Shown here one piece after another: positions 26,683 to 59,426 of a DNA stretch of 64,000 nucleotides. The position numbers and the translations under genes were made by a program. This DNA is from Granulicella sp. L46 (lineage in GTDB: Bacteria; Acidobacteriota; Terriglobia; Terriglobales; Acidobacteriaceae). Position 1 is the first letter of the stretch; each line of letters begins with the position of its first letter. The DNA lies in assembly GCF_009765785.1 (NCBI RefSeq), contig NZ_LMUT01000025.1, positions 468,890-532,889 of the forward strand, read 5' to 3'. The notes beneath the pieces were generated by a model, which made no database searches, was not told where the DNA came from, and saw only the letters and a list, made by a program, of their open reading frames with translations.

Positions 26683-26964
26683 AAATCCCCGCCGCACAGA
26701 CCCTGGGGTTTCAGCGTTTGCGCCGCCGGAGGCTACGAACTTGCCGCGGGGACAACCTGGTCGGAGCTTCGGCGATTTAGGCCAATCACTTAACAGAAGG
26801 ACATTTCTCAAGACGAATCCAGTCCCACAGCGTCTATCCCCAAGTCGCCGAAAACCCCGCTTATACTTAACACCACTTTTACCCGAGGCAATGTTAGCCA
26901 GCTCCACTCACGCGTTCGGCCCTGTAGCATTCAGTCTCTATTTTGCTTCACCGCTGAGGTTTCC

Positions 26965-28674: not shown

Positions 28675-30093
28675 CTAATCCGTGGGGAAGGGAACGAATC
28701 GATCGACGCAGGAGTAGGGAGTTCCTTTGGTTGGCGAACCGGAGATGGTTGCGTCGGTGCCAGCGGGAAGCTGGAGATTGCTTCCACCCGGGCCGAAGAC
28801 GACGTCCGCATTGTCGAAGGTGTAGGTGTACGGCGTATCCGGGGCCATACTGTCCGTAAGGAAGACTCCGTCGAGGTTAACCTGCGCGCGATGGTCATGA
28901 TCGTAGCCATCGAAGAGGATCTTGCCGCCTCCAGAGATGCTCACGTTACGCAGCGTGATGTCGCGGAAGGTGGGGGGGGAGTTTCCCTTGACTGGACCAT
29001 TTGCCGCGTAGGCAGCGGTGATATCGAGCGGGCGGCCTGAGTTCCGAATGCAGATGCCGTCGTAGACGACGTCGTGCACCAGGCCGCCTTTTGTACCCAT
29101 GGACTTGATGCGGATGCCCGAGTCGGTGCCGTCCAAGGTGAGGTCCGTGACGCGAATCTTACTGACTCCTTCCATCGTCTCGGAGCCGATAGACATACCG
29201 TGTCCCCAGTAAAAGTGGTTGTGAATCACGGTCATGTTGGTGACGCCGCCGGGGCCCCCCTTGATGGCCACGTTGTCGTCTCCTTCTCTAAAGAAGGAGC
29301 GGGTGATGGTGATATTTTTCGAGCCATTCCCCGGATCGATGCCGTCGGTATTTCGTGAGAGAGGATGAAGAGTATTCGCGATACGTTGCACGGTGTCGAT
29401 CTTGACGCCCCACACGGTGAAACCATCGCCTGCGTTGTAGGAAACGTGAAAGTTAGGCGAGTTTCTCAGTGTAATGCGGTAAAGGGTAAAGTTGTCGGCA
29501 TGGTCGGTAACGATCAGGCGGCTGACCTTCTGGCCGGCATTGTCTTTGAGAGCCTGTTCGCCAAGGTCCCACGCAGACGTGGTTGTGCCGAGAATATGCT
29601 GGCCACCTCTTCCATCAATAACTCCATCGCCCATGATGCCGGCACGCGACACATGGCTCACCGTGATCAAAGGCTTACATCCTCGCCCGGGATCTTTGCT
29701 GACAATCCCGCAGCTGCCTGGAGAGATCTCCAATACCTTGGGGTCGAGCGTCTCGAAGAGAGTGGCGCCCTTATCCACTACAAGGGTCACTCCTTCGCGA
29801 AGCTCAAGCGGGCCACTTACAAATGCGTTGAACCTACCCTGAGCCTGGAGGACAACGGCTTTTCCTTTTCCGCAGCTGTCGATGGCTTTCTGAATCCGAT
29901 CTGTATCGAGCTTGCTTTCGTCGGCCGCTGACAGCGTGTTGTAGGTGCTGTCGCTGATCGAGGTGAGGTGAGCGTCAAGTTTGGTGCAGAAGGTTGGAAT
30001 CACTGGTTCCGTAACCGTGCGTGTATCCTGCGCCGCTGCGGCTGGTGACAAACAGAACGCCAGTACCACCAGGGTCGATGAGTATCGTTGCAT
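28675..30093 (-). CDS. Secreted polygalacturonase, GH28
   Basis: 472 aa from the ATG at 30093 (AAGGAG 6 nt upstream), with a signal peptide ending near AAAAQ. All four GH28 active-site blocks are present in order: NTDGIDPGNG, GDDNVAIKG, GHGMSIGSE and GIRIKSM. It hydrolyses alpha-1,4-galacturonosyl bonds of (demethylated) pectin outside the cytoplasm. Last gene of a four-gene minus-strand operon, 95 bp after the pectin methylesterase. The intact catalytic Asp and His set suggests a fully active enzyme; endo versus exo action cannot be read from the sequence. Confidence 0.9.
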   Translation of the reverse strand: MQRYSSTLVVLAFCLSPAAAAQDTRTVTEPVIPTFCTKLDAHLTSISDSTYNTLSAADESKLDTDRIQKAIDSCGKGKAVVLQAQGRFNAFVSGPLELREGVTLVVDKGATLFETLDPKVLEISPGSCGIVSKDPGRGCKPLITVSHVSRAGIMGDGVIDGRGGQHILGTTTSAWDLGEQALKDNAGQKVSRLIVTDHADNFTLYRITLRNSPNFHVSYNAGDGFTVWGVKIDTVQRIANTLHPLSRNTDGIDPGNGSKNITITRSFFREGDDNVAIKGGPGGVTNMTVIHNHFYWGHGMSIGSETMEGVSKIRVTDLTLDGTDSGIRIKSMGTKGGLVHDVVYDGICIRNSGRPLDITAAYAANGPVKGNSPPTFRDITLRNVSISGGGKILFDGYDHDHRAQVNLDGVFLTDSMAPDTPYTYTFDNADVVFGPGGSNLQLPAGTDATISGSPTKGTPYSCVDRFVPFPTD

Positions 30094-30188
30094 GCCTGCT
30101 CCTTCGTGCTTTGTGGTGCTAAGCGGAGTTGAAGAGCGTGAGAACGGGTCCAGCCAACGCCGCTGGTTGCCACTGCAGCAGTAGGCGG

Positions 30189-31319
30189 TCACTTCGCTTC
30201 CTTGATTGGATCCCAGCCGTCTGTGCCAGCCAGGAAAATTTTCGTCTCGAACCGCTTGGCCTGCGCGGCCGTTAGCTGATGAGAATGCGGATCGCGAGCA
30301 GTCGGGTTGGCACCGGGGCCACTTGACTTGTATTCGGCGTAGAAGACCGTGTCGAGATTATGAGTCTCGCCGGGATGCCACTCGCGCCAGCCCGCTGGTT
30401 CGATGTGGGCTCCCATCTCGGTGTGGAGGAAGACCACGGACGCGTATGGGCGCCAGGGTCGACCAAGATAGACATGGGCCTCCCCAGGTTCGGCGGTCAG
30501 GCGGCAATGGTTGAAGACGAATGTGGACTGTTGATTGGGTAGATACTTGCCCTGCGCCGTGAGGTAGCCGCCTGCGACATGTAGCGTACTGCGGATCTCG
30601 CATTTATTGAAGACAGCGTTGCCGTCACCATAGATGAAGTCGACGTTCCCGGCAATGACACAGTGCGTAAAGTAACTGCGTGTGGGCACCGGCGTACAGG
30701 GTGTCTCGGTAGCGAGTGGGGCGGGTTGCGCAATCGACGGGGAAGATGTTGAGTTGGGAGCCGGTGTCCTCCGGCTTCCTGTCTGACCACAACCGCGAGC
30801 GCCGATGTAGAGCGTGTCCTGGTTCGCAAGGATGCTGACGTGGCCGAGAATGTTTCGGTCGCCTTCCAGGTTAAGCGCCTGCGCCTGGGATCCAGCGAAC
30901 GCCTGTTCGTGCGTGCGGTTGAAGTCGTTCTGAAATGTGAGGTTGAAGGCATGGAAGTCGCTGCCGAGCACATGAACGGTTGCGTAGCTCGGCTTGGTGC
31001 CCCGCGTCCCTTGGCTGGTGTCGTCGACCAGGATCGTCTCCGCTGGGTTTGCCCCCGTTCCGCGCAGCGTCACGTGGGACTGATTGATGATCACCTGCTC
31101 GCGATAGATACCGGGGGCAATGAGAACTGTCCCACCTGTAGGAGGAACGGCATCGACCGCCGCCTGGACCGTTTTGTACTGCGCCGAGCCGTCGGCGGCA
31201 ACGCGAAAAACGGATGGCATCGGTGCTTGAGCCTTGCAGTGCAACCCGATTGCAAGGAATAACCCACTCGTAAGAAGGCCTAGTGCGCCATAGCGGCGAA
31301 CCATCGTGCAGATGAGCAT
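30189..31319 (-). CDS. Secreted pectin methylesterase, CE8
   Basis: 376 aa; AGGAG 7 nt before the ATG at 31319 fixes the start, and a signal peptide ends near CKAQA. Conserved CE8 blocks are all visible: GIYREQVIINQSHVTLRG, QALNLEGD, NQDTLYIG with one catalytic Asp, GNVDFIYGDGNAVF with the other, and YLGRPWRPYASVVF. It removes methyl esters so that GH28 enzymes can act. Odd: between NQDTLYIG and the second catalytic block there is a Pro/Thr/Ser-rich insert (GCGQTGSRRTPAPNSTSSPS and onward) longer than I expect, near the substrate cleft. Third gene of the operon, 61 bp after uxaE. Confidence 0.9.
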   Translation of the reverse strand: MLICTMVRRYGALGLLTSGLFLAIGLHCKAQAPMPSVFRVAADGSAQYKTVQAAVDAVPPTGGTVLIAPGIYREQVIINQSHVTLRGTGANPAETILVDDTSQGTRGTKPSYATVHVLGSDFHAFNLTFQNDFNRTHEQAFAGSQAQALNLEGDRNILGHVSILANQDTLYIGARGCGQTGSRRTPAPNSTSSPSIAQPAPLATETPCTPVPTRSYFTHCVIAGNVDFIYGDGNAVFNKCEIRSTLHVAGGYLTAQGKYLPNQQSTFVFNHCRLTAEPGEAHVYLGRPWRPYASVVFLHTEMGAHIEPAGWREWHPGETHNLDTVFYAEYKSSGPGANPTARDPHSHQLTAAQAKRFETKIFLAGTDGWDPIKEAK

Positions 31320-31380: not shown

Positions 31381-32649
31381 TCACCGCGCTTCCCCCAGAA
31401 AAACAGGCCTTATGTGTCGCTCAAATAAGTTCGTCGTCACATTCCGCGCCACAATCGCTTCGTTTTCCCTGAGTGCGTCAAGGTATCGCGGCCCCATCTT
31501 TGCCGCCACCTTGAAACCAACGTGTAATAGTTGCCGAAAACTAGGGTTATACGCCGGATTCGTTCCGTCATGTCGCAGCGCACCGGTAAACTCGTCGCTA
31601 CTCCAGCCGTTCACTTCGTCCGGCCACGGTAATGCCGAACGATCGATGTCGATGACCGTTGCATACGGTGCGGTCAACTCATCGGCGTGCGCAAAGGCTT
31701 CCGCATAAATCTCCTTCGCCGCCGCGAGGCCATCGCCCCCTGACTCCGCCAATCCAATCAGCTCTTCCAACCAGGTCGTTCCAGCCGTCTTCAAATGCAC
31801 ACCCGCACCCGAACTCTGCACAGCCTCATGGATCACCTTATAAATCGAGAATTTGTCCGAACCCGAATGCACGCTCAGCTTCAAGTTCGTGGGCAGATGA
31901 TATCTCTCTACCGCATAGGCAATTGCCGCTATATCTTCCCTGAATTCGCGTGCAAACGTAGGCACGTCGCCAACGTAATCCACGCCCTTGTTGAATCGAC
32001 CGGTAAACTTCGGCGCAATCGTCTGAATCGGAATCCCTTCATCCGCAATCATTGCGAGCACTGCCAGCAACTCAACCGGCGTCTGTGCAGCATTGGTCTC
32101 GTCCATCGAAATCTCGGCAACAAATCGTCCCTCGCCTTTGCTCTCCTCAATTGCGCGATAGATCCTGCCAGCCTCCTTCACCGCCGCCAGAAAGTTATTT
32201 GCCACGCTCCGCAGATACTCCCGATCCACCTCGAACGGCGCATCCACATTCGGGATCAACACCCTGCCGGTCAATTCACCATGGCGTGCAATAAACGCGT
32301 CGACGTCCATCGCGTGGGCCGGCTGACCAATCATGTCTGCGACGTCCAATGTGAAGAAATCGCAGGGTTCAATAAATCGCCCAACCGTCTTCAACTGAAT
32401 ATGGTCTCCATCCACAAAGTAAGGCCTGGTCCACTTCAAATCCTTCACCGCTATATCCGCAGCAACCCGCGCCGCGCGTGGCTCCGAGCCGATAATCACG
32501 TGCTCGCGATTGGACTTGTTCCAAACCGGCACCACTTCCACTCCGGCATCCAGCGCTAGAACGCATGCTTGCAACTGCGCCTTCGCCTGCATTCCAAAAC
32601 GGTCTCCCACTCCGATCGAAAATAGCGGAAGTGTCAGGTTTTGGTTCAT
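31381..32649 (-). CDS. uxaE: Tagaturonate epimerase-like enzyme (UxaE family)
   Basis: 422 aa, cytoplasmic, no signal peptide. The N-terminal SIGVGDRFGMQAKAQLQA, the KWTRPYFVDGDHIQLKTVGR block and PKFTGRFNKGVDYVGD are features I associate with the UxaE family, which interconverts tagaturonate and fructuronate in an alternative uronate route. Lying among secreted pectinases, it would process imported galacturonate after isomerisation. It is 135 bp after the first polygalacturonase gene and 61 bp before the methylesterase. The family call rests on memory of the family, with moderate certainty about the exact reaction. Confidence 0.75.
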   Translation of the reverse strand: MNQNLTLPLFSIGVGDRFGMQAKAQLQACVLALDAGVEVVPVWNKSNREHVIIGSEPRAARVAADIAVKDLKWTRPYFVDGDHIQLKTVGRFIEPCDFFTLDVADMIGQPAHAMDVDAFIARHGELTGRVLIPNVDAPFEVDREYLRSVANNFLAAVKEAGRIYRAIEESKGEGRFVAEISMDETNAAQTPVELLAVLAMIADEGIPIQTIAPKFTGRFNKGVDYVGDVPTFAREFREDIAAIAYAVERYHLPTNLKLSVHSGSDKFSIYKVIHEAVQSSGAGVHLKTAGTTWLEELIGLAESGGDGLAAAKEIYAEAFAHADELTAPYATVIDIDRSALPWPDEVNGWSSDEFTGALRHDGTNPAYNPSFRQLLHVGFKVAAKMGPRYLDALRENEAIVARNVTTNLFERHIRPVFLGEAR

Positions 32650-32784: not shown

Positions 32785-34020
32785 TTACTTCAGGTTTCCG
32801 CGTACGCCGGCACCAATCTGTACATTCGCACCGTGCGCCGCTGTCACCGTAAAATCGGTTGCGCTTACATCCGCGTACTGCACAATCGCGCCCATTTCTC
32901 CATAAAGATGAACGTGGATTAACTTCAGATTGCGAATTCGCGATTCCGGCAGTCCCACAATCAGTGCCGCCTGACGAGCACCTGTTGCCGTCACGTTTTC
33001 AATCGTGATGTCGTCAAACATTGGAGTTAGTCGAGTAACCTTCTCCTCGCTGATCGTGTCCGGCACCTTGGGATAAAACTCGCTGATAAGGATGGGCGTC
33101 CGAACGTCTTCCATGGTGATATCTCGAAAGACAAAGTGACCGATCGCGGCATTCCCGCGATCACGATTCGACTTCACCCGCACACCTTGGTCCGTACCCT
33201 TGAAATGTATTCGTTCTGCCCGAACATCCTGCACGCCGCCCGCAATCTCGCTCCCAATCGAAAGCCCATGTCCATGCAGAAACGTGCAGTCCGTGATCAC
33301 GATATGACGCGACGGCGCATCAGGCCCAGGAGAATCCGGCTGCCCACTCTTGATCGCTACGTTATCGTCACCCGTATCAATCGTTAGGTGGTCGATAACA
33401 ATATTCGAGGACGAAAACGGATCGATGCCATCCGTATTATGCGAACTCTGCGGCGCCAGTACCTTCATATTCGTAAAGGTCATGTCGTCCGAGTAGTACG
33501 GGACAATCTGCCACATCGGCGAGTTCTCCACCGTCACCCCACTCATGTGAACATGCTTGCAGTGATCGAACACGATTAGTCGAGGCCGCGGATCATGCGG
33601 CTTATCCCACCACGACTCGCCTCTTCCATCGATCACGCCCATGCCGTCGATCGTCACGTCCTCAGCGTTTGTTGCCGTCAACAGCGCCTGCTTACCCTTG
33701 TCCTTGAACTCCTCCTTGTCAGGATAATCAGCATGATCTGCGCTGCCCGCCAACGTCGTGCCTTCCGCAATCCGCAGCGTCATATGGCTCTTCAAAATCA
33801 GCGGTGACGATACGTACACGACCCTACCGTCCAGCGACACAATCCCTTGATGCGTTCCGCTGCAATCATCAATCGCCTTCTGGATTGCGATTGAATCGTT
33901 GGTAGCGCCATCCCCCTTCGCTCCATACTGTCGCACAGCGCAAACCTTTGCAGCGCACGCATTGCCCGCGAATCCCACACCAGCGGCTATCAGCAACGCA
34001 TTTCTCAGCATCGGTTTCAT
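32785..34020 (-). CDS. Secreted polygalacturonase, GH28 (first gene of pectin operon)
   Basis: 411 aa from the ATG at 34020. Three ATGs lie in a row (34026, 34023, 34020), and GGAG gives spacings of 2, 5 and 8 nt, so one of the last two is likely. A signal peptide ends near GNACA. GH28 blocks: NTDGIDPFS, GDDNVAIKS, GHGLSIGSE and GVRVKSN (Val in place of the commoner Ile). It depolymerises polygalacturonan outside the cell. A promoter and a 12-bp palindromic operator lie about 180-230 bp upstream, shared in design with the divergent receptor gene. Confidence 0.9.
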   Translation of the reverse strand: MKPMLRNALLIAAGVGFAGNACAAKVCAVRQYGAKGDGATNDSIAIQKAIDDCSGTHQGIVSLDGRVVYVSSPLILKSHMTLRIAEGTTLAGSADHADYPDKEEFKDKGKQALLTATNAEDVTIDGMGVIDGRGESWWDKPHDPRPRLIVFDHCKHVHMSGVTVENSPMWQIVPYYSDDMTFTNMKVLAPQSSHNTDGIDPFSSSNIVIDHLTIDTGDDNVAIKSGQPDSPGPDAPSRHIVITDCTFLHGHGLSIGSEIAGGVQDVRAERIHFKGTDQGVRVKSNRDRGNAAIGHFVFRDITMEDVRTPILISEFYPKVPDTISEEKVTRLTPMFDDITIENVTATGARQAALIVGLPESRIRNLKLIHVHLYGEMGAIVQYADVSATDFTVTAAHGANVQIGAGVRGNLK

Positions 34021-34197
34021 CATCATCTCTCCTCAACAAAAGTCGCTGCAACGATTCCGCATTTCTCCAATCAAACGCGACTCAACTCAAAGCTTGTACG
34101 CACGGCGAACCAGGGTGCTTGTCAGATCGCGCGTCGCTTCATCATGCCGAGCAGGTATCGAAAGAACGCTCGGGTATCGATGTCGGGTCACGAGTCT

Positions 34198-34249
34198 GGC
34201 AACGTTGCCGGACCCAGCCGATATTAGCAATCGAAATAATCCACGTCAA
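34198..34249 (-). promoter_or_regulatory. Promoter and LacI-type operator of the minus-strand pectin operon
   Basis: On the minus strand: TTGACG (-35, 34244-34249), a 17-bp spacer, TAATAT (-10, 34221-34226), then 11 bp further the perfect palindrome GGCAACGTTGCC (34198-34209), with flanking bases extending the dyad in part. The operator would cover the transcription start, and its central CG is typical of LacI-family sites. An 8-bp direct repeat GGTATCGA follows at 34154 and 34173. The same layout recurs at 35431-35486. Confidence 0.7.
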
Positions 34250-34319
34250 GGCAATGGCGGATGCATGGGAAGGTTTGTAAGTGTACCCGAATCCCCGCAG
34301 GCTGTTAGTATCGTTCAGC

Positions 34320-35339
34320 ATGAAAGAGACGAAACGTCCTACCATCATCGACGTGGCGCACGCGGCGAACGTCGGGGCATCGACTGTCTCACGGCATGTG
34401 CGAGGGGGCAAGTCGGTTAGCCCGGAAGTTGCAAGACGGATCGAGATTGCGATTGCACAGCTGGGATATGAGCCAAATACCCTGGCTCGCAGCCTTAGAG
34501 TTGGCAGAACCCAGACACTCGGTGTGTTGTTTCCGCATGTCAATAATGTGTTCTTCGGCAACGCCCTTCGTACGATTCAGACCGAAGCTAGAATCAACGG
34601 CTTTACGGTGATGCTGCTTACTCACCAAGAGGAAGCGAAGCTGCAGCAGGAGCAACTGGCGTCGCTCAAGCGCTCGCAGGTGGATGGAATCATCATGGTC
34701 CCGGCCGCAGAGACCAACGTTGCACAGGTGCGCGCTCTGCTTGGCAATACACCGGTCGTAGCATTTGACCGCTCCCTCGGCAGTGCGGTCGATTCGGTGC
34801 TCCTGGACAACTACAGAGCGGCACGTGAGGCAACCGAGCACCTACTGGGCCATCGGCATTCTCACATCGTCGCCGTGAACGCACCGTACAAGTTGCAGCC
34901 GCTGCAGAGCCGCTTCAATGGATACAAAGAGGCGATGGAAACGGCGGGGAAGCACGCGGAGACGATCGTCTGGCATGAATCGGAGCAGCTCCGGAAGGAG
35001 CTGTGCGCAGCCTTGCAGAGAAAACGTGAACCGGCGACAGCCATCCTCTCGATGAGCTATTCGGTCACGCTTGCGGTCCTTTCGACTTTGCGCGAATGCC
35101 ACATCGCGCTGAGCAAAATCGGGTTTATTGGAATAGACGATATGGAGTTCGCAAACTTCATCCATCCCCCGCTGACGACGCTGGCGCAGCCTTCGGAGCA
35201 GTTTGCGCGGCTTGCATTTCAGCAGCTGCTAGGGCGTACATCAGGCTCTAAGGAGAAGCCGGTTCACGTAGTAGTCGCCGGCAATATGATGATTCGATCT
35301 TCCTGCGGATGTAAATCGGCTTCTTCCAGAAGTCTGTAG
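34320..35339 (+). CDS. LacI-family transcriptional regulator of the pectin locus
   Basis: 339 aa from the ATG at 34320. Residues about 5-55 hold the LacI helix-turn-helix and hinge (TIIDVAHAANVGASTVSRHV, then EPNTLARSLRVGRT). The rest is the periplasmic-binding-protein-like effector domain (TLGVLFPHVNNVFFGN, VDGIIMVPA, IGFIGIDDMEFANFIHPPLT). It lies between two divergent sets of pectin genes, so a pectin-derived sugar acid such as galacturonate or a breakdown product is the likely inducer. Candidate operators (GGC[A/C]ACGTTGCC) overlap the start regions of both sets. Repression by this protein is inference. Confidence 0.88.
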   Translation: MKETKRPTIIDVAHAANVGASTVSRHVRGGKSVSPEVARRIEIAIAQLGYEPNTLARSLRVGRTQTLGVLFPHVNNVFFGNALRTIQTEARINGFTVMLLTHQEEAKLQQEQLASLKRSQVDGIIMVPAAETNVAQVRALLGNTPVVAFDRSLGSAVDSVLLDNYRAAREATEHLLGHRHSHIVAVNAPYKLQPLQSRFNGYKEAMETAGKHAETIVWHESEQLRKELCAALQRKREPATAILSMSYSVTLAVLSTLRECHIALSKIGFIGIDDMEFANFIHPPLTTLAQPSEQFARLAFQQLLGRTSGSKEKPVHVVVAGNMMIRSSCGCKSASSRSL

Positions 35340-35430
35340 TCCTTCCCCCCGTCTCCACTCGCATGGCGAGAGGTTATTGGGCTTAGCGTCGACGCCTGCG
35401 AGCTAATCTTCCCCCATTAAAATTTAGCTG

Positions 35431-35486
35431 TTGACGATCGCTGATTGTTGCGTCTACTATTCGGCTGATCATTTGGCCACGTTGCC
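35431..35486 (+). promoter_or_regulatory. Promoter and LacI-type operator of the pectin receptor gene
   Basis: TTGACG (-35, 35431-35436), 18-bp spacer, TACTAT (-10, 35455-35460), then 14 bp later GGCCACGTTGCC (35475-35486), which differs from the other pectin operator at one base and is flanked by a pairing T and A. A repressor bound here would block initiation. The leader to the ATG at 35622 is long, about 150 nt. Confidence 0.7.
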
Positions 35487-35621
35487 AGATTATCCGAAAT
35501 GCAGACTCGTGGCGTCCGAAACGTCATCATTAACAGCCGCTACTGAACAGATAGAGAATCCCAGGAACTTATAACGTCGCCGAAACATGGTGAACTCCGA
35601 ACGAAAGTGGAAGCCAGCGCA

Positions 35622-38600
35622 ATGCCAAAGATCGATAAGCTTGAAGATGACGTGGTAGGACTAATACAAGAGCGGCAAGAGACGCTAGTCAGTCCAGAGT
35701 GCGGAGAAAGAAGCCTCCGATCCTGGCCAACCGGGCTGCGCCGAGCCTATTCCGTTTGTGCGGTGTTGATGCTCCTGCTGCCTGCGGTAGCGCGAGCGCA
35801 GATCGGTGGCTCGGGGACGATCGAGGGAACGGTTACTGATTCCACCGGAGCTGTGATTGCGGGCGCTAACATTACGGCACGGAATGTCGCCACGGGTGCA
35901 GAGATGGTTCGCACCAGCAACTCCGACGGCCGTTACAACATCTCGCCGCTCGACGTGGGCGAGTACACGGTGAAGATCAGCGCCAAAGGATTTAAGACGT
36001 TGTTGCGCGAAAAGCTTGAGCTGAACGGCATGCAGGTGCTGCCGCTCGACGCTGGGCTGCAAACGGGCGCGGCCGACGTAACGGTGACTGTGACCACGTC
36101 ACCTCCCCCGCTGGAGACGGAAAACGCGACCCTCGGAGCCACCATGGAGCACGAGGCCTACACGTCCCTCCCGCTCGAGATGGGCGGCGCGAATGGGGTC
36201 AGCACCGATCAGCGGCGCGTGACCGACTACGCCATCATGATGCCGGGCGCGACAAACAACGAGATCAAGAACAACGAATCGGATGAGCCGATGGTGGTGA
36301 ACGGCTATTCGAGTGGCACGACCATGTACGTCGAAGGCGTTCCGCTGGAGTCGGCTTCGACGGCTGGCGATCCGCGCTTCATCTGGCCGGCCTTCTCTGT
36401 GGAGACGATCAATCAGTTCCAGCTCAAGACAACCGGCTACTCTCCCGAGTACCAGGGCGTCGGCGTTGAAAACTTTACCATGAAGGTCGGCACCAACCAG
36501 ATTCATGGCAGCGTCTACGACATCTTCCGCAACACGGCACTCGACTCTGCAGGCTTCATCCCCGCACAGTACCCGGCGAACTATCCCGATCCGAAGCTTG
36601 CCGGCGCGTATTACAAACCCCCAGAACACATGAACGAGTATGGCATGACCCTGGGCCTACCGATCTGGAAGAACAAGATCTTCTTCTTTGGCAGTTACGC
36701 AGGATTCCGCTACTCAACACTGACCAAATCCCAGGTGCAGACCATCCCGACGCCCGCAGAGCTGTGCGGCGACTTCTCCGCCGTCGGACAACCCATATAT
36801 GATCCCACCACGCAGACCGAGACCGGTACTAACTACTCGCGCAAACAGTTCATGGGTGCAAGCTATACGAGCGCCGGTTGCGGTACAGGCCCTGTAATCG
36901 CCAACGTCATTCCTCAGAACGAGCTTTCGCCCATTGCGGAGTATCTGCAGAAGTTCATGCCGGCGCCAAGCAACTCGAACCTCACCAACAACTATTATGG
37001 CTCGTACGCCTGGGGTCTCAACAACTGGTCCACGGCGGATCGCCTTGACTTTGACATCAATGACAAGCATAAGGTGAACGTGATCTTTGCCATGGGCCGC
37101 CAGGGTCTCATCGGTCCTGCGGGCAGCCAGACAACAAACGTAGCGCCGCTGCCGTATCTGTATGCCAAGAATTATTCGCCGATCTCGAAGGTTGTGATCC
37201 TGGAGGATACGTACGTTCTCAAGAACAACCTCGTCAACCAGTTCAAGTACGGCGCGGCACAGTATCACTCGCCGGACAACAACCCGACGTTTGGAATCCC
37301 CGAGTTCGCCGCCACGGCAGCTGGCATCACCAACCTTCCCGCCGGCCAGGCTTCGGGCAGCTTTCCTTACGAGAAGTTCTCCGGCGGCCCACAGGCGTTT
37401 GCTCCATGGGGACCGCAGACCGGCTACGTGGGCAATACCAATGCCTTTACGGTGCTCGACAACATGCAGTGGATCAAGGGACGTCACGCCTTCACCTTCG
37501 GCGGCCAGGTTGAGTGGATGGAGTACAACTACCTCTATGCCGACACCGGCAGTACCTTAGCCACACTGAACTTCGGTCTGAACGAGACGGCGCAGGTGAG
37601 CGGCTCTTCGGCAACGGCGAAGTCCAACACTGGCCTTCCCTACGCAAGCTACCTGCTCGGCGCAGTGGACTCTGGTACCTACACGGAGTACGCGCCGATT
37701 GCGCAGGAAACCGGATCGCGCTACCGTCCCTTTGCCTTGTATGCCAATGACGACTGGCAGGTAACTCCCAAGCTAACCGTGAACATCGGTCTGCGCTGGG
37801 ATGTCATGCCACCCTTCCGCGAATCTGAAGACCGCTTCTCGTTCCTGAACCCGACGGCCTCCAACCCCGTCACCGGCTCGCCGGGCATACTCCAGTTCGC
37901 CGGCAGTGGAACAGACAGTTGCCATTGCACCACACCGCTGCAGACCTATTACAAAGACTACGGTCCGCGTCTGGGTTTTGCCTGGCAGATTAACCCGGGC
38001 GTCGTGCTGCGTGGCTCGTATGGCATCTACTATGGCCACGGTGGCGGTACCTCCGGCGGCCAGACAACACTGCCTTCAAGCAACATGGAGCTGGGCTATG
38101 CTGCATCGCCTAATCCGACCAGCGAGGGACTATCGCTTCCGGCCTTCTATCTCAACAACAGCCCGTACTTCACCGGCGCGGGCCTAGCCAACACGGCATT
38201 TGGAACCAGCACGATTGCTGCGCCGCCGGTCTTCAACCCCTCCTACGCAACCTACTACTCCACCAACGCTGTCTCGCCCTACAAAGTCTCCTCGAGCCCT
38301 GCCTATCTTGATCCGTTCTACGGTGGACGCACGCCGACGTTCGAGGGATGGTCGCTTGGCTACCAGATTCTTGTTACGAAGGATATGACGGCGACGATCA
38401 GCTACGTAGGCAACCAGGGCCACTTCCTGGTGCCGACGGGCAGCCCGCGTGGCTACTGGAGCGATCAACTCGATCCGAAATGGCTCTCGCTCGGCACAAC
38501 GGTGCTCGGCTCCGCTGCCGCGACGAATATGCCTGCGGGAACCTCACTGCCTTATGCGAGCTTCAACGGTACGGCCGCCCAGGGATACACGGTAGGCCGC

Positions 38601-39473
38601 GCACTTACTGCCTTCCCGCAGTACTCCGGCCTGGTGGATCAGCTCCCCGCGGTCGGCAACTCCAACTACAACGCATTGCAAGTCTTCGTTCAGCAGCGCT
38701 TTAGCCATGGCTTCAGCTTCATGCTTAGCTACACCTGGAGCAAGTCGATCGACGATGTGGGTACCTTCCGCACCGGGTACGCTATTCCGGCCGGCGTGCT
38801 GTTCAACAACGGCAAAGCCTGGGCGATCGACCGCATCGAGCGTTCGCTCAGCACCCAGGATCAACCGCAGAACCTGGTTCTTACCGCCAACTACGATCTG
38901 CCGTTCGGCAAGAACGGCATCGGCTCGGGCAACGCCTTCGTACGCGCCATCGGAAGTGACTGGCGTTTCTCCGGCATCCTCACGGTTGTCTCGGGCAATC
39001 CGATCGCGCTGACCGGTGCTGCCTGCACAGGCCTAACCGGACAGGGAACCTGCATGCCAGGCTACGCTCCAGGCTTCACCGGCTCGGCGCGTCAGCACGG
39101 CAAGTGGGGACAGGGCGCCACTCGTACGACTTTGGCGTCGATTCAATACATCAACCCAGCCGCCTTTGTGGAGGTTCCCGCACCCTACATCGGTAACGTA
39201 GCACGCACGGCTCCAGATGGACTTCGCGGACCTGGCAACTACGACATCGATGCCAGCATACGCAGGACTTTCAGTATCTGGAAGGGTGGGCGCGTCAAGT
39301 TCGTCTTTGATGCCTCGGTATTCAACGCGGTCAACCATGTTTGGTTTGGAAGCCCGGCCAGCACGGCTGACGGCTCGATCGGCAGTTCGGTCGGGTCGGC
39401 AAGTCTGGGTACGGTAGCGGGTCAGGCAAATAACCCGCGGCAGTTTCAGTTCGCGGGCCACATCAACTTCTAA
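35622..39473 (+). CDS. Large Oar-like TonB-dependent receptor of the pectin locus
   Basis: 1283 aa from the ATG at 35622 (GGAAG 8 nt upstream); a GTG at 35607 is less likely. An unusually long N-region of about 40 residues precedes the hydrophobic core of the signal peptide (cleavage near ARAQ, residue 60). It is followed by a carboxypeptidase-regulatory domain at about 64-150 (GTIEGTVTDSTGAVIAGANI), a plug-like region containing VNGYSSGTTMYVEGVPLES, and a beta-barrel ending in Phe (QFQFAGHINF). By location it is a candidate for uptake of pectin oligomers across the outer membrane. A strong terminator follows, so the downstream enzymes may need read-through or a second promoter. Confidence 0.87.
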   Translation: MPKIDKLEDDVVGLIQERQETLVSPECGERSLRSWPTGLRRAYSVCAVLMLLLPAVARAQIGGSGTIEGTVTDSTGAVIAGANITARNVATGAEMVRTSNSDGRYNISPLDVGEYTVKISAKGFKTLLREKLELNGMQVLPLDAGLQTGAADVTVTVTTSPPPLETENATLGATMEHEAYTSLPLEMGGANGVSTDQRRVTDYAIMMPGATNNEIKNNESDEPMVVNGYSSGTTMYVEGVPLESASTAGDPRFIWPAFSVETINQFQLKTTGYSPEYQGVGVENFTMKVGTNQIHGSVYDIFRNTALDSAGFIPAQYPANYPDPKLAGAYYKPPEHMNEYGMTLGLPIWKNKIFFFGSYAGFRYSTLTKSQVQTIPTPAELCGDFSAVGQPIYDPTTQTETGTNYSRKQFMGASYTSAGCGTGPVIANVIPQNELSPIAEYLQKFMPAPSNSNLTNNYYGSYAWGLNNWSTADRLDFDINDKHKVNVIFAMGRQGLIGPAGSQTTNVAPLPYLYAKNYSPISKVVILEDTYVLKNNLVNQFKYGAAQYHSPDNNPTFGIPEFAATAAGITNLPAGQASGSFPYEKFSGGPQAFAPWGPQTGYVGNTNAFTVLDNMQWIKGRHAFTFGGQVEWMEYNYLYADTGSTLATLNFGLNETAQVSGSSATAKSNTGLPYASYLLGAVDSGTYTEYAPIAQETGSRYRPFALYANDDWQVTPKLTVNIGLRWDVMPPFRESEDRFSFLNPTASNPVTGSPGILQFAGSGTDSCHCTTPLQTYYKDYGPRLGFAWQINPGVVLRGSYGIYYGHGGGTSGGQTTLPSSNMELGYAASPNPTSEGLSLPAFYLNNSPYFTGAGLANTAFGTSTIAAPPVFNPSYATYYSTNAVSPYKVSSSPAYLDPFYGGRTPTFEGWSLGYQILVTKDMTATISYVGNQGHFLVPTGSPRGYWSDQLDPKWLSLGTTVLGSAAATNMPAGTSLPYASFNGTAAQGYTVGRALTAFPQYSGLVDQLPAVGNSNYNALQVFVQQRFSHGFSFMLSYTWSKSIDDVGTFRTGYAIPAGVLFNNGKAWAIDRIERSLSTQDQPQNLVLTANYDLPFGKNGIGSGNAFVRAIGSDWRFSGILTVVSGNPIALTGAACTGLTGQGTCMPGYAPGFTGSARQHGKWGQGATRTTLASIQYINPAAFVEVPAPYIGNVARTAPDGLRGPGNYDIDASIRRTFSIWKGGRVKFVFDASVFNAVNHVWFGSPASTADGSIGSSVGSASLGTVAGQANNPRQFQFAGHINF

Positions 39474-39582: not shown

Positions 39583-41526
39583 ATGCGTTTCTTCCGTATC
39601 ACCTTCTCCCGCGCGATCGTCTTGTTTCTCTGCCTCACGCTTTGTCGCGCGGCTCTCGCACAACAGCAGCCGTGGTCTCAGCGCATGGCTGACTCAGCCA
39701 TCACGCTCAATGTCGGCCATGGCGATGAGCCGAGCGCTCCGCTGAAGTGGAACTACGAGCTTGCAACGTTTCTGAATGGGATGGACGCCGTCTGGTACAA
39801 CACTGCCGACGATGCGTACTTTCGCTTCATCAAGCACTCCCTGGATACGCTCGTCTTGCCCGGCGGGTCCATCCCCACATACAACGCCTCCGCCAATACA
39901 CTCGACAATGTTGCGCTGGGCCGAGAGTTGCTCCGGCTCTATCGCGTGACGTTGGACGATCGTTACTACAAGGCCGCAGTATTACTTCGTAGCCAGCTTG
40001 CGGAGCAGCCGCGCAACGCCTCCGGGGGCTTCTGGCACAAGAAAATCTACCCCAATCAGATGTGGCTCGATGGCCTCTACATGGCTGAACCGTTTTACGC
40101 CGAATATGCCTCGGTGTTTCACGAGCCGCAGGACTTCGCTGATATCACCCGGCAGTTCACCCTGATGGAAGCGCATGCGCGTGATCCGAAGACCGGCCTG
40201 CTCTATCACGCGTGGGATGAATCTAAGCAACAGGGCTGGGCCGATCCCAACACGGGAGCATCGCACGTCGTCTGGGCGCGGGGGATGGGTTGGTACATGA
40301 TGGCTCTCGTCGACACGCTTCCTTACTACCCGGAGAATGATCCAGGCCGGGCGAAGCTCATCGCGATCCTTAACCGCACCGCTGAGGCGATTGCACGAGT
40401 GCAGGATCAGCGCACGGGGCTCTGGTCCCAGGTGCTGGACAAGCCCGGTGAGGACGGCAACTACTTCGAGTCCTCCGCGGCGTGTATGTTCGTCTATGCG
40501 CTCCAGAAGGGCGTGCGGCTCGGATATCTTCCCGAGCGCTACGCAGCCAACGCGCAACACGGCTGGCAGGGAATCCTCGACAAATTTGTGCAGACCAGTG
40601 CGAATGATTCCGTCACTCTCACCAGTACAGTGAAGGCTGTTGGTCTTGGTGGCACCCCGTATCGTGACGGCAGTTACAACTACTACATTCACGCGCCGAT
40701 CGGCAGCAACGATCCAAAGGGCGTTGGAGCGTTCCTCCTGGCCGCGACGGAGATGGAGAACGCGCCAGCCGCCACCAACCTCCGCGGGGACACCGTGCTC
40801 GTCGATGCATGGTTTAACAGCCAACAGCGCAAGAACGCCGCTGGACAGACAGAGTACTTCCACTACAAGTGGAACGACTTCTCCAACGATGGCTACTCCC
40901 TATTCGGCCACCTCTTTGAGCGTGAGGGTGCGACACTCGGCACGCTCTTCGCTGCGCCAACGGCATCCAATCTGAAGCACGCGCAGATCTATATCATCGC
41001 CTCACCAGACAATCCAGCGAAGAATCCTCATCCGCACTACGCAACCTCGCGCGACGGCGCGGAGCTTTCAGCATGGGTACAGAGGGGAGGCATTCTGCTT
41101 CTGCTCGAAAATGACCCTGCCAACGCAGATATCGAGCATTTCAACAACATCGCAGATCGTTTCGGCATTCACTTCAATGCGGTCCTGAGCCACCATGTCG
41201 TCGGTACCGACTACGCCGCCGCACAAATTCCAGTGAAGCCTGATGGCGATCTCTTTCACTCACCGCACGTGCTCTACATGAAGGACACGTGCACTATCTC
41301 CATCTCCGCGCCAGCCCGAGCTCTAGTCACCGATCGCAACGTCATCGTCATCGCCACGGCAAAGTACGGCAAGGGCGCAGTCCTCGCGGTTGTAGACCCC
41401 TGGCTCTACAACGAGTACACCGACGGCCGCAAAGACCATCCGTCAGGGGACAACTTCGCGGCAGGCAAAGAACTCGTTCGCTGGGTGATCGCGCAGCGCA
41501 CCGACCACACACAGGAAGCGCGATGA
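39583..41526 (+). CDS. Unsaturated rhamnogalacturonyl hydrolase (GH105) with extra C-terminal domain
   Basis: 647 aa with a signal peptide ending near RAALAQ. Residues about 35-420 are the GH88/GH105 alpha/alpha barrel (GGFWHKKIYPNQMWLDGLYM, WARGMGWYMMALVD, GSYNYYIHAPIGSNDPKG). These remove 4,5-unsaturated galacturonyl residues from rhamnogalacturonan or pectin fragments released by lyases. The family is normally about 370 aa; here about 200 more residues follow (HAQIYIIASPDNPAKNPHPH, then AVVDPWLYNEYTDGR), a class I glutamine amidotransferase/DUF4350-like fold of unknown role. It starts 54 bp after a strong terminator. Confidence 0.85.
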   Translation: MRFFRITFSRAIVLFLCLTLCRAALAQQQPWSQRMADSAITLNVGHGDEPSAPLKWNYELATFLNGMDAVWYNTADDAYFRFIKHSLDTLVLPGGSIPTYNASANTLDNVALGRELLRLYRVTLDDRYYKAAVLLRSQLAEQPRNASGGFWHKKIYPNQMWLDGLYMAEPFYAEYASVFHEPQDFADITRQFTLMEAHARDPKTGLLYHAWDESKQQGWADPNTGASHVVWARGMGWYMMALVDTLPYYPENDPGRAKLIAILNRTAEAIARVQDQRTGLWSQVLDKPGEDGNYFESSAACMFVYALQKGVRLGYLPERYAANAQHGWQGILDKFVQTSANDSVTLTSTVKAVGLGGTPYRDGSYNYYIHAPIGSNDPKGVGAFLLAATEMENAPAATNLRGDTVLVDAWFNSQQRKNAAGQTEYFHYKWNDFSNDGYSLFGHLFEREGATLGTLFAAPTASNLKHAQIYIIASPDNPAKNPHPHYATSRDGAELSAWVQRGGILLLLENDPANADIEHFNNIADRFGIHFNAVLSHHVVGTDYAAAQIPVKPDGDLFHSPHVLYMKDTCTISISAPARALVTDRNVIVIATAKYGKGAVLAVVDPWLYNEYTDGRKDHPSGDNFAAGKELVRWVIAQRTDHTQEAR

Positions 41527-41613: not shown

Positions 41614-43020
41614 TTGTTGAGCAGGATGCGGAGCATGCAAACAAACCGCCGAGGATTTCTTCGAGCCGCCGCCAAAACGTTGGCCGCGCTCCCACTCTGG
41701 CCTGCAACGCGCGGCATCTCAGCGCAGCGCGCATCCGGCGATCCAGCGAGCCCTGCCGCCCCCTCAGTCAGTCTCGACATCAAAGAGTTTGGAGCCGTCG
41801 GTGATGGCAAGACCAACGACACGCTTGCCATTCAGCAGGCGCTCGATCGCTGCAGCGTCCTTGGCGGTGGTCAGGTCTGCGTACCAAGTGGCGAGTACCT
41901 GACGGGCGCTATCATGCTGCACTCCAATACGACCTTGCACCTAGATGCAGACGCTTCCTTGCTCGGATCACCAAACCTGGCCGACTATCCGCTCACACAA
42001 GTGCGTTGGGAAGGCCACTGGGTGAAGGGCTACATTGGCCTAATATCTGCCGTGGATGCCAACAACATCGGCCTCACGGGAAGGGGAAGAATCGTTGGAA
42101 ACCCCGCCATCAAAGGTCGTGTGGACGCACAGAACGGACTGCGCCACCCGGCTCTGCTTGAATTCGTCAACTGCAGCCGCCTCCGCGTGGAAGACTGCGT
42201 GACGGAACAGAACGATATGTGGTCGATTCATCCTGTCTACTGCGACGACGCTCTCTTCCGTAATGTCACCGTGCGCGGTGGTGCCGACGGGATCGACGTG
42301 GACTCATGCAGGCACGTTGTAATCGAAAGCTGCACCTTCTCGACCGGAGACGATTGCATCTCGCTCAAGTCGGGCCGCGGCGCGGAAGGCTACGCAATCA
42401 ATCGACCCACCGAAGAGGTGCGCATCAGCAACTGCACCTTCGCCGATTCGCACTGGGCCTGCGTCGGCATCGGCAGCGAAACCTCCGGTGGCATTCGCAA
42501 CATCCATATCGATCATTGCAAATGCATAGCCGCACGGACCTTTGCTATCTATATTAAGAGCCGGCCCGGACGAGGCGCATTCATCGAAAACATCTACGTG
42601 AGCGATCTCGATGTGTCCGGAGCAGAACAAGGGTTTCTGCGCTTCAACATCCTGAACAGCGGGAAACAGGATGAGGCAGCGGTTCCAGGAGAACAGGGAA
42701 TTCCGACCATAAGAAACTTCAATTTCAACAATATTCGTGTCAAGGATGTGCCAGTGCTGGTCGATGGAGTTGGAATTGACCCTGACAAGCCGCTTGAAGG
42801 TTTATCCCTCACCGACATAACCGGTACCTGCGGCAAGGGGATCTTCCTTGCGAATATTAAGCACGCCGTGCTGCGAAATATCGGAGTGACCGGGTATACC
42901 GGCGCGCTGCTCAACACCTACAACGTAACGGGAGTCGGGCTCGCCAAAGCTGCTCCTCTGGAACCCACAAAGATCCCCGCTCCAATTCCAGCACCAGCCC
43001 AACCCTATTTGCTGCATTGA
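41614..43020 (+). CDS. Tat-exported GH28-like glycosidase with altered active site
   Basis: 468 aa by the TTG at 41614 (TTG 41617 is 6 nt from AGGAG; ATGs at 41626 and 41635 also possible). The N-terminus carries a twin-arginine signal, NRRGFLRAAAKTLAALPLW. The body is a right-handed beta-helix that starts IKEFGAVGDGKTNDTLAIQ. Two GH28 blocks differ from the other two enzymes here: GADGIDVDS replaces NTDG, and CVGIGSETSGG replaces the GHG block, so the usual His is missing; GDDCISLKSG is kept. Specificity is probably for another pectin bond, such as rhamnogalacturonan. The downstream gene overlaps or closely follows. Confidence 0.82.
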   Translation: MLSRMRSMQTNRRGFLRAAAKTLAALPLWPATRGISAQRASGDPASPAAPSVSLDIKEFGAVGDGKTNDTLAIQQALDRCSVLGGGQVCVPSGEYLTGAIMLHSNTTLHLDADASLLGSPNLADYPLTQVRWEGHWVKGYIGLISAVDANNIGLTGRGRIVGNPAIKGRVDAQNGLRHPALLEFVNCSRLRVEDCVTEQNDMWSIHPVYCDDALFRNVTVRGGADGIDVDSCRHVVIESCTFSTGDDCISLKSGRGAEGYAINRPTEEVRISNCTFADSHWACVGIGSETSGGIRNIHIDHCKCIAARTFAIYIKSRPGRGAFIENIYVSDLDVSGAEQGFLRFNILNSGKQDEAAVPGEQGIPTIRNFNFNNIRVKDVPVLVDGVGIDPDKPLEGLSLTDITGTCGKGIFLANIKHAVLRNIGVTGYTGALLNTYNVTGVGLAKAAPLEPTKIPAPIPAPAQPYLLH

Positions 43021-43094
43021 GAAACCAGGCAGATGGAAAACGAGTCGAAGCATCAGCGGTCTGCTTAGTAAAACGAGTCTTATCCCCGAGCGCC

Positions 43095-45245
43095 ATGTTG
43101 AAATCTATCCGTTCAGTTCTCCGCATCTGTGCTGCAGCCTCTATTCTTCTCCAGGTCGCTGTCGCACAGAACACCCCGCAGCCAGCCGCGGCCGTCCACC
43201 ACGACGACGGCAATGCAGCTAATGCCGGCCGGGTCAAGCTCAACGGCTACCTCGACGGTATCGCAGCCGAATACATCGCGAGCCGCAATGCCACGGTCGC
43301 TGCCATCAAGACGCGCGCTCAAGCAGAGGATCGCCAAGCCATGGTCGGGAAAAAGATCATGTCCCTCATTGGCAGTCTCCCGCAGCGCACCGCACTGAAC
43401 GTCAAGCTCATGGGAGTTACCCAGGCCGACGGTTTCCGCATCCAAAAGCTGATTCTGGATAGTCAACCCGGCTTTCACATCCCGGCCTTGCTCTACCTTC
43501 CAGACGGACATCCAGCTGATCAGAAGCTTCCTGCCATTCTGATCTCTCCTGGCCATGCACCGAATGGAAAGGTCAGCGACTATACCTCCGCAGCCATCTT
43601 CGCTCGCAACGGTTTTATCGTTCTCTCCTACGATCCCATCGGTCAGGGGGAACGCCTCCAGTATCCAAATCCCAAGGATCCAAATCAGTCGCTGGCAACT
43701 CGTCCTACGGGGGAGCACGGCGAAGCAAGTCTGCAGCCCATGCTGATCGGAGATACTCTGGACCGCTACATGCTCTGGGACGCGATGCGCGGTATCGATT
43801 ACCTAAGCAGTCTTCCCCAGGTCGATTCAAAACGCATCGGTGCCTTTGGTTGTTCCGGCGGCGGAGCGATCACTGCTCTTCTCGGAGCACTCGATAGGCG
43901 GGTGGCTGCCATCGCCGTCGCCTGCTACACCACATCGTTCGATACACTGCTGCCTGCTCTGGGCCCGCAGGACGGCGAACAATCGATCCCACACTTCATC
44001 GCCTCGGGCTTCGACTTCCCAGACTGGGTTGAGCTTGCAGCACCGCGGCCGTACGCCGTCGTCGCCACATATTCTGACATGTTCCCATTTGCTGGCGCGC
44101 GTTCAACGGTCATCGAGGCCCGGCGCTTCTACTCACTCTTCGATCCCAGCAGCGCCGGTGTTCCATCCGGCACAAGCTCCCATGCGGTTCCGCCAACGCC
44201 TGCCGGACCTGCGCTGAACGCCGACACTACAAATGAAATTCCTCTCACGGCCCCTCTGCAATTCATCACGGGTCCTGGCCATCACGGTGCCCTTGGGGCA
44301 ATCATGGGCGAGATCGTGGGATTCTTCATCCGGAACCTGAAGCCAGAAGCCGATGCGACCCATCCCATCCTTCCTGTGCCCGCTAATGGAGTTCTCGGTC
44401 CGATCGGTCCGCCAGCCAGTCTTCCAAAGGAGGCGTTGCAGGTCACCGCAACAGGACAGGTTGCCGCCAGCTACCCAGATTCCGAAACCGTCTTCACTCT
44501 CAATCGGAAGCGTGCCGCTAAAATCCTTCCCCCCAGTTCGCGAAGGCTGAGTGGACAGAAATTAGCTGAAGCCATTCGTGATGCTACCCAGACCTCGGTC
44601 GTTCCCGGAACGTCAACGTTCGACGCAACCCTGTTGGCCGCAAAGACCGGTGACTTCACCCTCCCTTCCCGCACGGGAATCGATCTTCACGGGGAGCTCT
44701 ACGTTCCTTTGACCGCCGGCCGTCACCCTGCGGTCATCCTCCTCGTTCCCGATTCGATCGAGGGGAACAGCTCCACTGATCGCTCGAATAAGGTTCGGTT
44801 CGAATCGCTAGCCGCTCCTGGCAATATCGTGCTGGCCATCACCCCGCGTTCGTCGCCTCCCGGCACAGACGACATGAAGTCTCCTATCCTTGGGCCTTTC
44901 TATTTACTCAGCCTTCGCGCGGATCTGGTTAGCCACACACTCGTGGGCATGCGCATCGACGACGTCGCACGCATTACCGATTACCTCGCGAGTCGGCCGG
45001 ATGTCGATCCGGCTCGGATCACCGCCACCGGCAGCGGACACATGGGCCTGGTGCTACTGCACGCCGCTGCCCTCGACCCACGTCTGAAGCACATCACCGT
45101 AGACCACGTCCTCACCAGCTATCGCAGCTTGATCGATGCCCCTATGCCCATCGGAGCGCCTGAGGACATCATCCCCGGTGTCCTTCTTCACTATGACATC
45201 CCTGACCTCGTTCGATCACTAGGCATACCAGGAGAAGCACCCTAA
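43095..45245 (+). CDS. Large secreted esterase with two alpha/beta hydrolase regions
   Basis: 716 aa from the ATG at 43095, chosen because a signal peptide (MLKSIRSVLRICAAASILLQ, ending VAVAQ) follows directly; the frame is open from 43017. The first hydrolase region (about 90-400) has AILISPGHAPNGK, YDPIGQGERLQYP and the nucleophile elbow GAFGCSGGGA, similar to acetyl xylan esterase-like proteins. A second region (about 530-716) starts with HPAVILLVPDS and has a GSGHMG elbow without the usual Ser. In this locus it is likely to deacetylate pectin or rhamnogalacturonan; direct evidence is lacking. Last gene of the plus-strand set. Confidence 0.75.
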   Translation: MLKSIRSVLRICAAASILLQVAVAQNTPQPAAAVHHDDGNAANAGRVKLNGYLDGIAAEYIASRNATVAAIKTRAQAEDRQAMVGKKIMSLIGSLPQRTALNVKLMGVTQADGFRIQKLILDSQPGFHIPALLYLPDGHPADQKLPAILISPGHAPNGKVSDYTSAAIFARNGFIVLSYDPIGQGERLQYPNPKDPNQSLATRPTGEHGEASLQPMLIGDTLDRYMLWDAMRGIDYLSSLPQVDSKRIGAFGCSGGGAITALLGALDRRVAAIAVACYTTSFDTLLPALGPQDGEQSIPHFIASGFDFPDWVELAAPRPYAVVATYSDMFPFAGARSTVIEARRFYSLFDPSSAGVPSGTSSHAVPPTPAGPALNADTTNEIPLTAPLQFITGPGHHGALGAIMGEIVGFFIRNLKPEADATHPILPVPANGVLGPIGPPASLPKEALQVTATGQVAASYPDSETVFTLNRKRAAKILPPSSRRLSGQKLAEAIRDATQTSVVPGTSTFDATLLAAKTGDFTLPSRTGIDLHGELYVPLTAGRHPAVILLVPDSIEGNSSTDRSNKVRFESLAAPGNIVLAITPRSSPPGTDDMKSPILGPFYLLSLRADLVSHTLVGMRIDDVARITDYLASRPDVDPARITATGSGHMGLVLLHAAALDPRLKHITVDHVLTSYRSLIDAPMPIGAPEDIIPGVLLHYDIPDLVRSLGIPGEAP

Positions 45246-57080: not shown

Positions 57081-59426
<2,346 letters not shown>

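Follow-up and report, generated by a model that had tools for sequence, protein, structure and literature searches.

Two divergent pectin promoters with matching, probable LacI-type operators flank a lacI-family gene in an acidobacterium

The window, a 64-kb stretch of DNA that was analysed as part of a 5.48-Mb genome, carries a lacI-family gene flanked by two divergent groups of pectin genes. Gene families were assigned using Pfam, and the extents of the presumed operons were inferred from strand and spacing. The genes are as follows:

28675..30192, minus strand: second GH28 gene, closing the presumed enzyme operon, with an uncertain start codon (PF00295, E 4.8e-46)
30189..31319, minus strand: pectin methylesterase family gene (PF01095, E 1.8e-55)
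31381..32649, minus strand: UxaE-like tagaturonate epimerase gene (PF16257, E 3.9e-47)
32785..34026, minus strand: gene of the GH28 polygalacturonase family that opens the presumed enzyme operon (PF00295, E 9e-51)
34320..35339, plus strand: LacI-family regulator gene, its ATG at 34320 backed by orthologue alignment (PF00356, Peripla_BP_1/3)
35607..39473, plus strand: large outer-membrane receptor of the carboxypeptidase-regulatory/TonB type (PF25183, E 4.9e-166; PF13620; PF00593)
39583..41526, plus strand: GH88/GH105-type unsaturated uronyl hydrolase (PF07470, Glyco_hydro_88, E 2.6e-103)
41614..43020, plus strand: third GH28 gene (PF00295, E 2.1e-17)
43017..45245, plus strand: esterase-like alpha/beta-hydrolase (AXE1/S9 type), last of the presumed receptor operon (PF05448, E 2.7e-15)

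Beside the enzyme operon lie three adjoining TIGR03435 family proteins (24632-25480, 25726-26907 and 26965-28578), the last of which has the domain twice.

The regulatory features fall on either side of lacI and immediately before it:

34198..34209, minus strand: operator 1, GGCAACGTTGCC, a perfect 12-bp palindrome 11 bp past the enzyme-operon -10 (letters checked; kept in 11/11 close genomes)
34221..34249, minus strand: enzyme-operon promoter, with -35 TTGACG (34249-34244), a 17-bp spacer and the extended -10 TGC-TAATAT (TAATAT at 34226-34221), from sequence, consensus scan and orthologues
34303..34311, plus strand: likely lacI promoter, an extended -10 TGTTAGTAT 8 nt before the ATG, from orthologue comparison
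35431..35460, plus strand: receptor-operon promoter, with -35 TTGACG (35431-35436), an 18-bp spacer and -10 TACTAT (35455-35460), from sequence, consensus scan and orthologues
35475..35486, plus strand: operator 2, GGCCACGTTGCC, a near-palindrome 14 bp past the receptor -10 (letters checked; orthologues)

The initial annotation had described two promoters with TTGACG as the -35 and TAATAT or TACTAT as the -10 at 17-18 bp, and both the coordinates and the letters proved exact; the LacI gene does lie between them, running from its ATG at 34320 to a stop at 35339. A consensus scan of positions 33900-35700 recovered both promoters, with 9/12 matches each, among five promoter-like sites, compared with a mean of 1.0 in shuffled sequence. 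The -35 elements are one base off TTGACA and the -10 elements two bases off TATAAT. The 12-bp palindrome reported 11-14 bp past each -10 was found at both positions and is perfect at operator 1, but at operator 2 one pair of the six is broken. Likewise, the two promoters have one layout in so far as TTGAC, a -10 and an operator occur in both, but they belong to two conserved sub-types, of which that at operator 1 has the extended -10. Operator 1 probably governs a four-gene operon that combines the UxaE-type epimerase with likely secreted enzymes.

The specificity of the sites was examined by scanning the window and the whole genome. Allowing two mismatches, GGCMACGTTGCC has 32 matches on both strands of the window, compared with a mean of 13.7 and a maximum of 27 in shuffles. 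Exact GGCMACGTTGCC occurs at only four places in the genome: two are the operators, and the other two, inside long reading frames, were taken as chance. At least 89 genome matches lie within one mismatch of GGCMACGTKGCC, compared with 62 in a backwards control, and 57 within one mismatch of TGGCNACGTTGCCR, compared with 23. Because one-mismatch matches are this abundant, in the control as well, the 12-mer alone is weak evidence, and the addition of regulon members by one-mismatch 12-mer genome scans was rejected as too unspecific. The composite of promoter and operator, TTGACN{17,20}TANNNTN{9,15}GGCNNCGTTGCC, yielded two genome matches, exactly these two sites, and none in the backwards control. 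The claim that no other copy is placed in this way thus holds genome-wide for promoter and operator together. A chance near-match had also been noted in katG, and indeed TGCAACGTTGCC is found at 57705, inside a 780-codon frame that reads as KatG by eye. With a matrix built from 25 sites, the window's own excluded, the two window sites take the top two ranks when both strands of the window are scanned. The observation itself is real, not chance.

We then compared the locus across genomes, 61 of which (28 from the window's genus) were searched for LacI; 46 had some LacI-family match. Close LacI orthologues (68-79% identity) were present in ten genomes besides the window's, all of the same genus, and their flanks were read together with eight stretches around more distant LacI genes. 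Sites flanking lacI were sought allowing one mismatch, and trans sites by exact pattern, so that invariance of the core is partly imposed. The enzyme-side operator GGCAACGTTGCC was exact in all 11 close genomes (the window and ten orthologues), at 99-126 bp before the lacI ATG in six of them (the window and L035-L039) and at 508-601 bp in four; it is thus within 0.61 kb of lacI in 10/11, and about 5 kb away in G023 (4.95 kb, stretch L043). In 11/11 the enzyme promoter faces a GH28, pectinesterase or UxaE gene, which in L038 and L042 is known by a contig-end pectinesterase fragment only (E ~3e-5). On the other side, GGCNACGTTGCC lies 105-139 bp past the lacI stop, before a receptor gene, in all six genomes with the window's layout, N being C, T, G, G, A and T.

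These comparisons also define the two promoter sub-types. Enzyme promoters (11/11) have TTGAC, a spacer of 17-18, TGC before the -10, TGCTANNAT and an operator gap of 10-14 bp; the -10, TAATAT in the window, is TAGCAT, TACCAT, TACTAT or TACGAT in orthologues. Receptor promoters (13/13 tabulated) have TTGAC, a spacer of 18 and no TGn, with an operator gap of 14 in 11/13 and of 13 and 17 in the others. The operator lies past the -10 at each of the 24 promoters tabulated, enzyme and receptor alike. Enzyme sites hold 2.0 bits per operator column, compared with 0.47 in the next 10 bases, and receptor sites 1.86 compared with 0.65; judged from these alignments, the sites are kept between species while the flanking DNA diverges. 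A central CG is found in 27/27 tabulated sites, in part because the search patterns required it, and the sites are even palindromes upstream of target operons, as PMC4052901 describes for LacI-family operators; in the available part of that source, even palindromes with a central CG are the family rule (1173 of 1303 LacI-TF motifs). The likely promoter of lacI itself is of narrower distribution: TGNTANNAT is located 8-9 nt before the lacI ATG (window 34303-34322) in 6/6 genomes with the window's layout, and was not seen at that place in five other close lacI orthologues. The lacI mRNA would probably be near-leaderless in the window's lineage, and, as neither operator overlaps this promoter, lacI is probably made independently of the operators.

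The operator also appears away from lacI. The other close lineage includes four genomes in which lacI and the receptor orthologue (48-49% identity) occupy different contigs. We observed a TTGAC promoter with an operator at this trans receptor in G007 and G003, and two tandem promoter-operator units, 139 bp apart, in G023 (L133 6086, 6225) and G002 (L134 4073, 4212); GGCNACGTTGCC is found at trans receptors as well as at receptor promoters adjacent to lacI. In addition, GH28 homologues elsewhere in G007, G002 and G023 have an operator 90-180 bp before their aligned part. The TTGAC promoter is absent upstream of these three GH28 sites, so the promoter layout is not universal. The best receptor match in G026 has only 33% identity. 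Receptors themselves vary: G004, G012, G019 and G021 have, behind site 2, a receptor 71-84% identical to that of G019 (its own, for G019) and 23-29% identical to the window's. The switch is preserved despite these differing receptors, which stand behind operator 2 in L036, L037, L038 and L039. The L038 receptor behind operator 2 reads as three pieces in different frames. No operator was found at receptor paralogues of 34-42% identity in G000, G007, G012, G013 and G019 (L135-L141, seven stretches).

Across the 28 genomes of the genus, exact TGGCNACGTTGCCA occurs at 24 distinct places in 14 genomes, compared with 6 rows from 4 genomes in the backwards control. Twelve of these places are lacI neighbourhoods, five are trans targets, and seven, inside frames (L106, L107, L112, L114-L117), were left out. 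Those in L114-L117 were considered as operators and read as chance, being located inside frames of genomes with no close LacI orthologue. The remaining three (L106 4991, L107 5003 and L112 1829, of G021, G013 and G003, where a close orthologue is present) are copies of TGGCTACGTTGCCA 53 nt inside a GH28-like frame, where it spells GYVA; this could reflect either (i) coding constraint, or (ii) an intragenic operator.

We next asked how the sites are distributed relative to LacI across the family. The composite TTGACN{17,20}TANNATN{9,15}GGCNACGTTGCC gave 16 matches in 9 of 300 family genomes and none in the backwards control on the 300. A LacI search of 300 genomes, taken as the same set since the handles agree, scored up to seven candidates per genome; at E <= 1e-58, 19 genomes had a match. 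The composite occurs in 8/8 genomes with a LacI of 68-100% identity, in 1/11 with one of 33-46%, and in 0/281 without a match at that threshold (8/8 vs 0/281, Fisher p = 9e-16, which is overstated owing to relatedness between genomes). The single distant genome with the composite, G239, belongs to another genus and carries it ahead of a receptor-GH28-PME-LacI(45%)-GH105 cluster.

Around more distant LacI genes of 37-46% identity, nine stretches were read (L045-L047, L158, L167-L171), the genes of 33-35% in G131, G180 and G326 being left out. Perfect GGCAACGTTGCC is present in four of the nine (L158, L168, L169 and L170), and in G283, G213 and G234 perfect sites lie about 1.5 kb or less from LacI genes of 42-45% identity; variant GGCATCGTTGCC-type sites only are found in three (L045, L046 and L047), and no operator in two, L167, with a similar helix (VGASTVSRC), and L171 (VSPSTVSRY). 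Copies of GGCATCGTTGCC near distant relatives (L045 8988, 12527; L046 1614, 6299; L158 9913; L168 8486, 14829) lie mostly between frames, that at L168 8486 lying inside one, and their recurrence hints at drift at the base adjoining the central CG. A scan of named genomes for LacI relatives returned 26 loci, with a top identity of 31%.

This distribution bears on whether the operator serves another LacI paralogue, or a regulator of another family, with the LacI between the operons a bystander. Such a reading is encouraged by the 12 LacI-family matches in the window's genome and by the frequency of AACGTT-cored palindromes in the LacI family; nevertheless, the operator tracks this orthologue group in the counts given above, it lies at most 0.61 kb before this very gene in 10/11 close genomes, and in five 10-16 kb stretches taken from other genomes (L048-L052), each around a LacI gene of 32-36% identity, there is no operator. 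We regard the bystander reading as improbable.

The LacI protein itself is consistent with a role as the cognate regulator. Its assignment to the LacI/GalR family is based on PF00356 (residues 8-53, 47.2 bits vs a cutoff of 27), with PF00532 and PF13377 also above cutoff. None of the named LacI-type groups of NCBIfam (RbsR, PurR, CcpA, GntR and others) was reached: 17 models matched at E <= 0.001, all below cutoff, the best being RbsR at 171.4 vs 382 bits. The recognition helix reads VG[ASP]STVSRHVRG in 11 close proteins; the window protein has ASTVSR and ARSL, and among 15 aligned proteins TVSR occurs in 15/15 and ARSL or ARAL in 15/15. In the numbering of PMC2978694, the window protein thus combines TVSR with Arg at AA-20, Ala-51 and Leu-54. 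The accessible part of that source ties Arg at AA-20 to G at NT-6, ties Leu-54 and Ala-51 to a central CG, and links (AA-15, AA-16) to (NT-5, NT-4). Both the G at NT-6 and the central CG are present in the operator half-site TGGCAAC, and the variable position of the receptor operators, NT-3, is outside the main linked positions in section 6 of PMC2978694. That the two sites are matching LacI-type operators, cognate to this LacI, is supported by conservation, trans placement, co-occurrence and the recognition residues, and is opposed by L167, L171 and the GH28 sites.

The operator O1 of the E. coli lac system is centred near +11. If transcription is assumed to start at the seventh base past each -10 (34214 on the minus strand and 35467 on the plus strand), operator 1 would cover +6 to +17 and operator 2 +9 to +20, and, because these positions resemble that of lac O1, steric repression is the most likely mode of action. 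We consider it highly probable, from the comparative evidence, that this LacI represses both the pectinase/UxaE operon and the receptor/GH88-105/GH28/esterase operon through operators just past sigma-70-type starts until a pectin product binds. A dimeric repressor encoded at 34320-35339 would bind GGC[A/N]ACGTTGCC just past the starts of the two divergent promoters and block either initiation or promoter escape. Its release by a pectin breakdown product, be it galacturonate, an oligogalacturonide or a later intermediate, would then switch on the two operons together; the gene content (GH28, PME, GH88/105, UxaE) points to galacturonate or an oligogalacturonide as the candidate inducer. The operators are separated by 1277 bp in the window, and nothing was found in favour of DNA looping between them.

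LacI might instead act as an activator or a dual regulator. Some LacI-family proteins can activate, and the deviations of the -35 and -10 elements from consensus mean that basal activity could be modest; yet the site lies past the -10 at every tabulated promoter, a position that favours repression, and we judge activation quite improbable. Very improbable, in turn, is a function of the palindrome as RNA in the 5' leader, either as a hairpin or as a protein site, and not as a DNA operator. The operators would be transcribed if the starts are right, and precede the first genes by about 120 and 170 nt, but a 12-nt palindrome with a 4-nt loop allows only four pairs, the fourth of which is broken by the receptor variants (by eye), and the near-fixed distance from the -10, together with the central CG, fits LacI operators. 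A chance occurrence of two GC-rich 12-mers near promoter-like strings, for which the abundance of the loose 12-mer in the genome might speak, is next to negligible in view of the cross-species conservation, the trans placement and the composite counts in the genome (2 vs 0) and in the 300 genomes (16 vs 0).

Under the favoured reading, repression by LacI at both operons, the two operators need not be equivalent. Perfect palindromes account for 11/11 enzyme operators and 6/13 receptor operators (Fisher p 0.006, among genomes that share ancestry). The extended -10 likewise marks the enzyme promoters (11/11) and is absent from the receptor promoters (13/13). In the other 7/13 receptor operators position 4 is substituted, in the promoter-side half only (C once, T four times, G twice). 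Four of the six perfect receptor sites are the tandem copies of G002 and G023, which weakens any general tuning rule. It is possible, though on present evidence doubtful, that selection has tuned the operators differently, such that some receptor would be made before induction, allowing the first pectin fragments to enter, while the enzymes would be held tightly off. With enzyme operators that are perfect and receptor operators that often are not, the way in which a cell detects a polymer too big to be taken up becomes open to direct test.

For a likely Acidobacteriaceae-type soil group, these results provide a concrete, testable regulon, consisting of one LacI-family protein, one operator, and defined promoters and targets. 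The operator motif can be traced across several genera and, as a receptor query gives 91 matches in the window's own genome, could predict which of these numerous receptor-like genes are devoted to pectin. Among the open-licence papers listed in literature searches, no title or abstract opening described a LacI regulon for pectin in acidobacteria.

Several known systems resemble the one proposed here. Xanthomonas campestris, which belongs to another phylum, offers a similar arrangement in the sux locus. There, according to the part of PMC1790865 available, SuxR is likewise a LacI/GalR-type repressor that controls a nearby TonB-dependent receptor and sugar-degrading genes, for sucrose where here it is pectin; suxR itself is raised in a suxR mutant, whereas lacI here appears to have a separate promoter. 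The present locus has the same arrangement, a repressor gene beside receptor and degradative genes with a common operator, a likeness in how the two loci would work. LacI-type proteins for galacturonate and glucuronate genes are also known (ExuR, KdgR, UxaR and UxuR in the portion of PMC4052901 consulted), of which UxaR, UxuR and KdgR are named there for Bacteroides, while at this locus a receptor and likely secreted pectinases are among the targets; acidobacteria are not mentioned in the main text of that source. In Thermotoga maritima, a single regulator, UxaR, similarly serves pectin-degrading, transport and uxaE genes, but it is, in the available text of PMC3750489, a GntR-family protein with a 17-nt motif and an ABC transporter among its targets, in place of the outer-membrane receptor here. 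E. coli provides a mechanistic parallel, with an operator just past the start and contacts between a hinge leucine and a central CG. The E. coli LacI is a tetramer with auxiliary operators, and its O1 has an extra central base; here there is no sign of tetramerisation or looping. The asymmetry of lac O1 (described in the accessible part of PMC2978694) likewise sets it apart from the palindromes at this locus. LacI operators and LacI-controlled receptor loci being already known, the acidobacterial pectin switch looks like a new instance of a familiar form of control.
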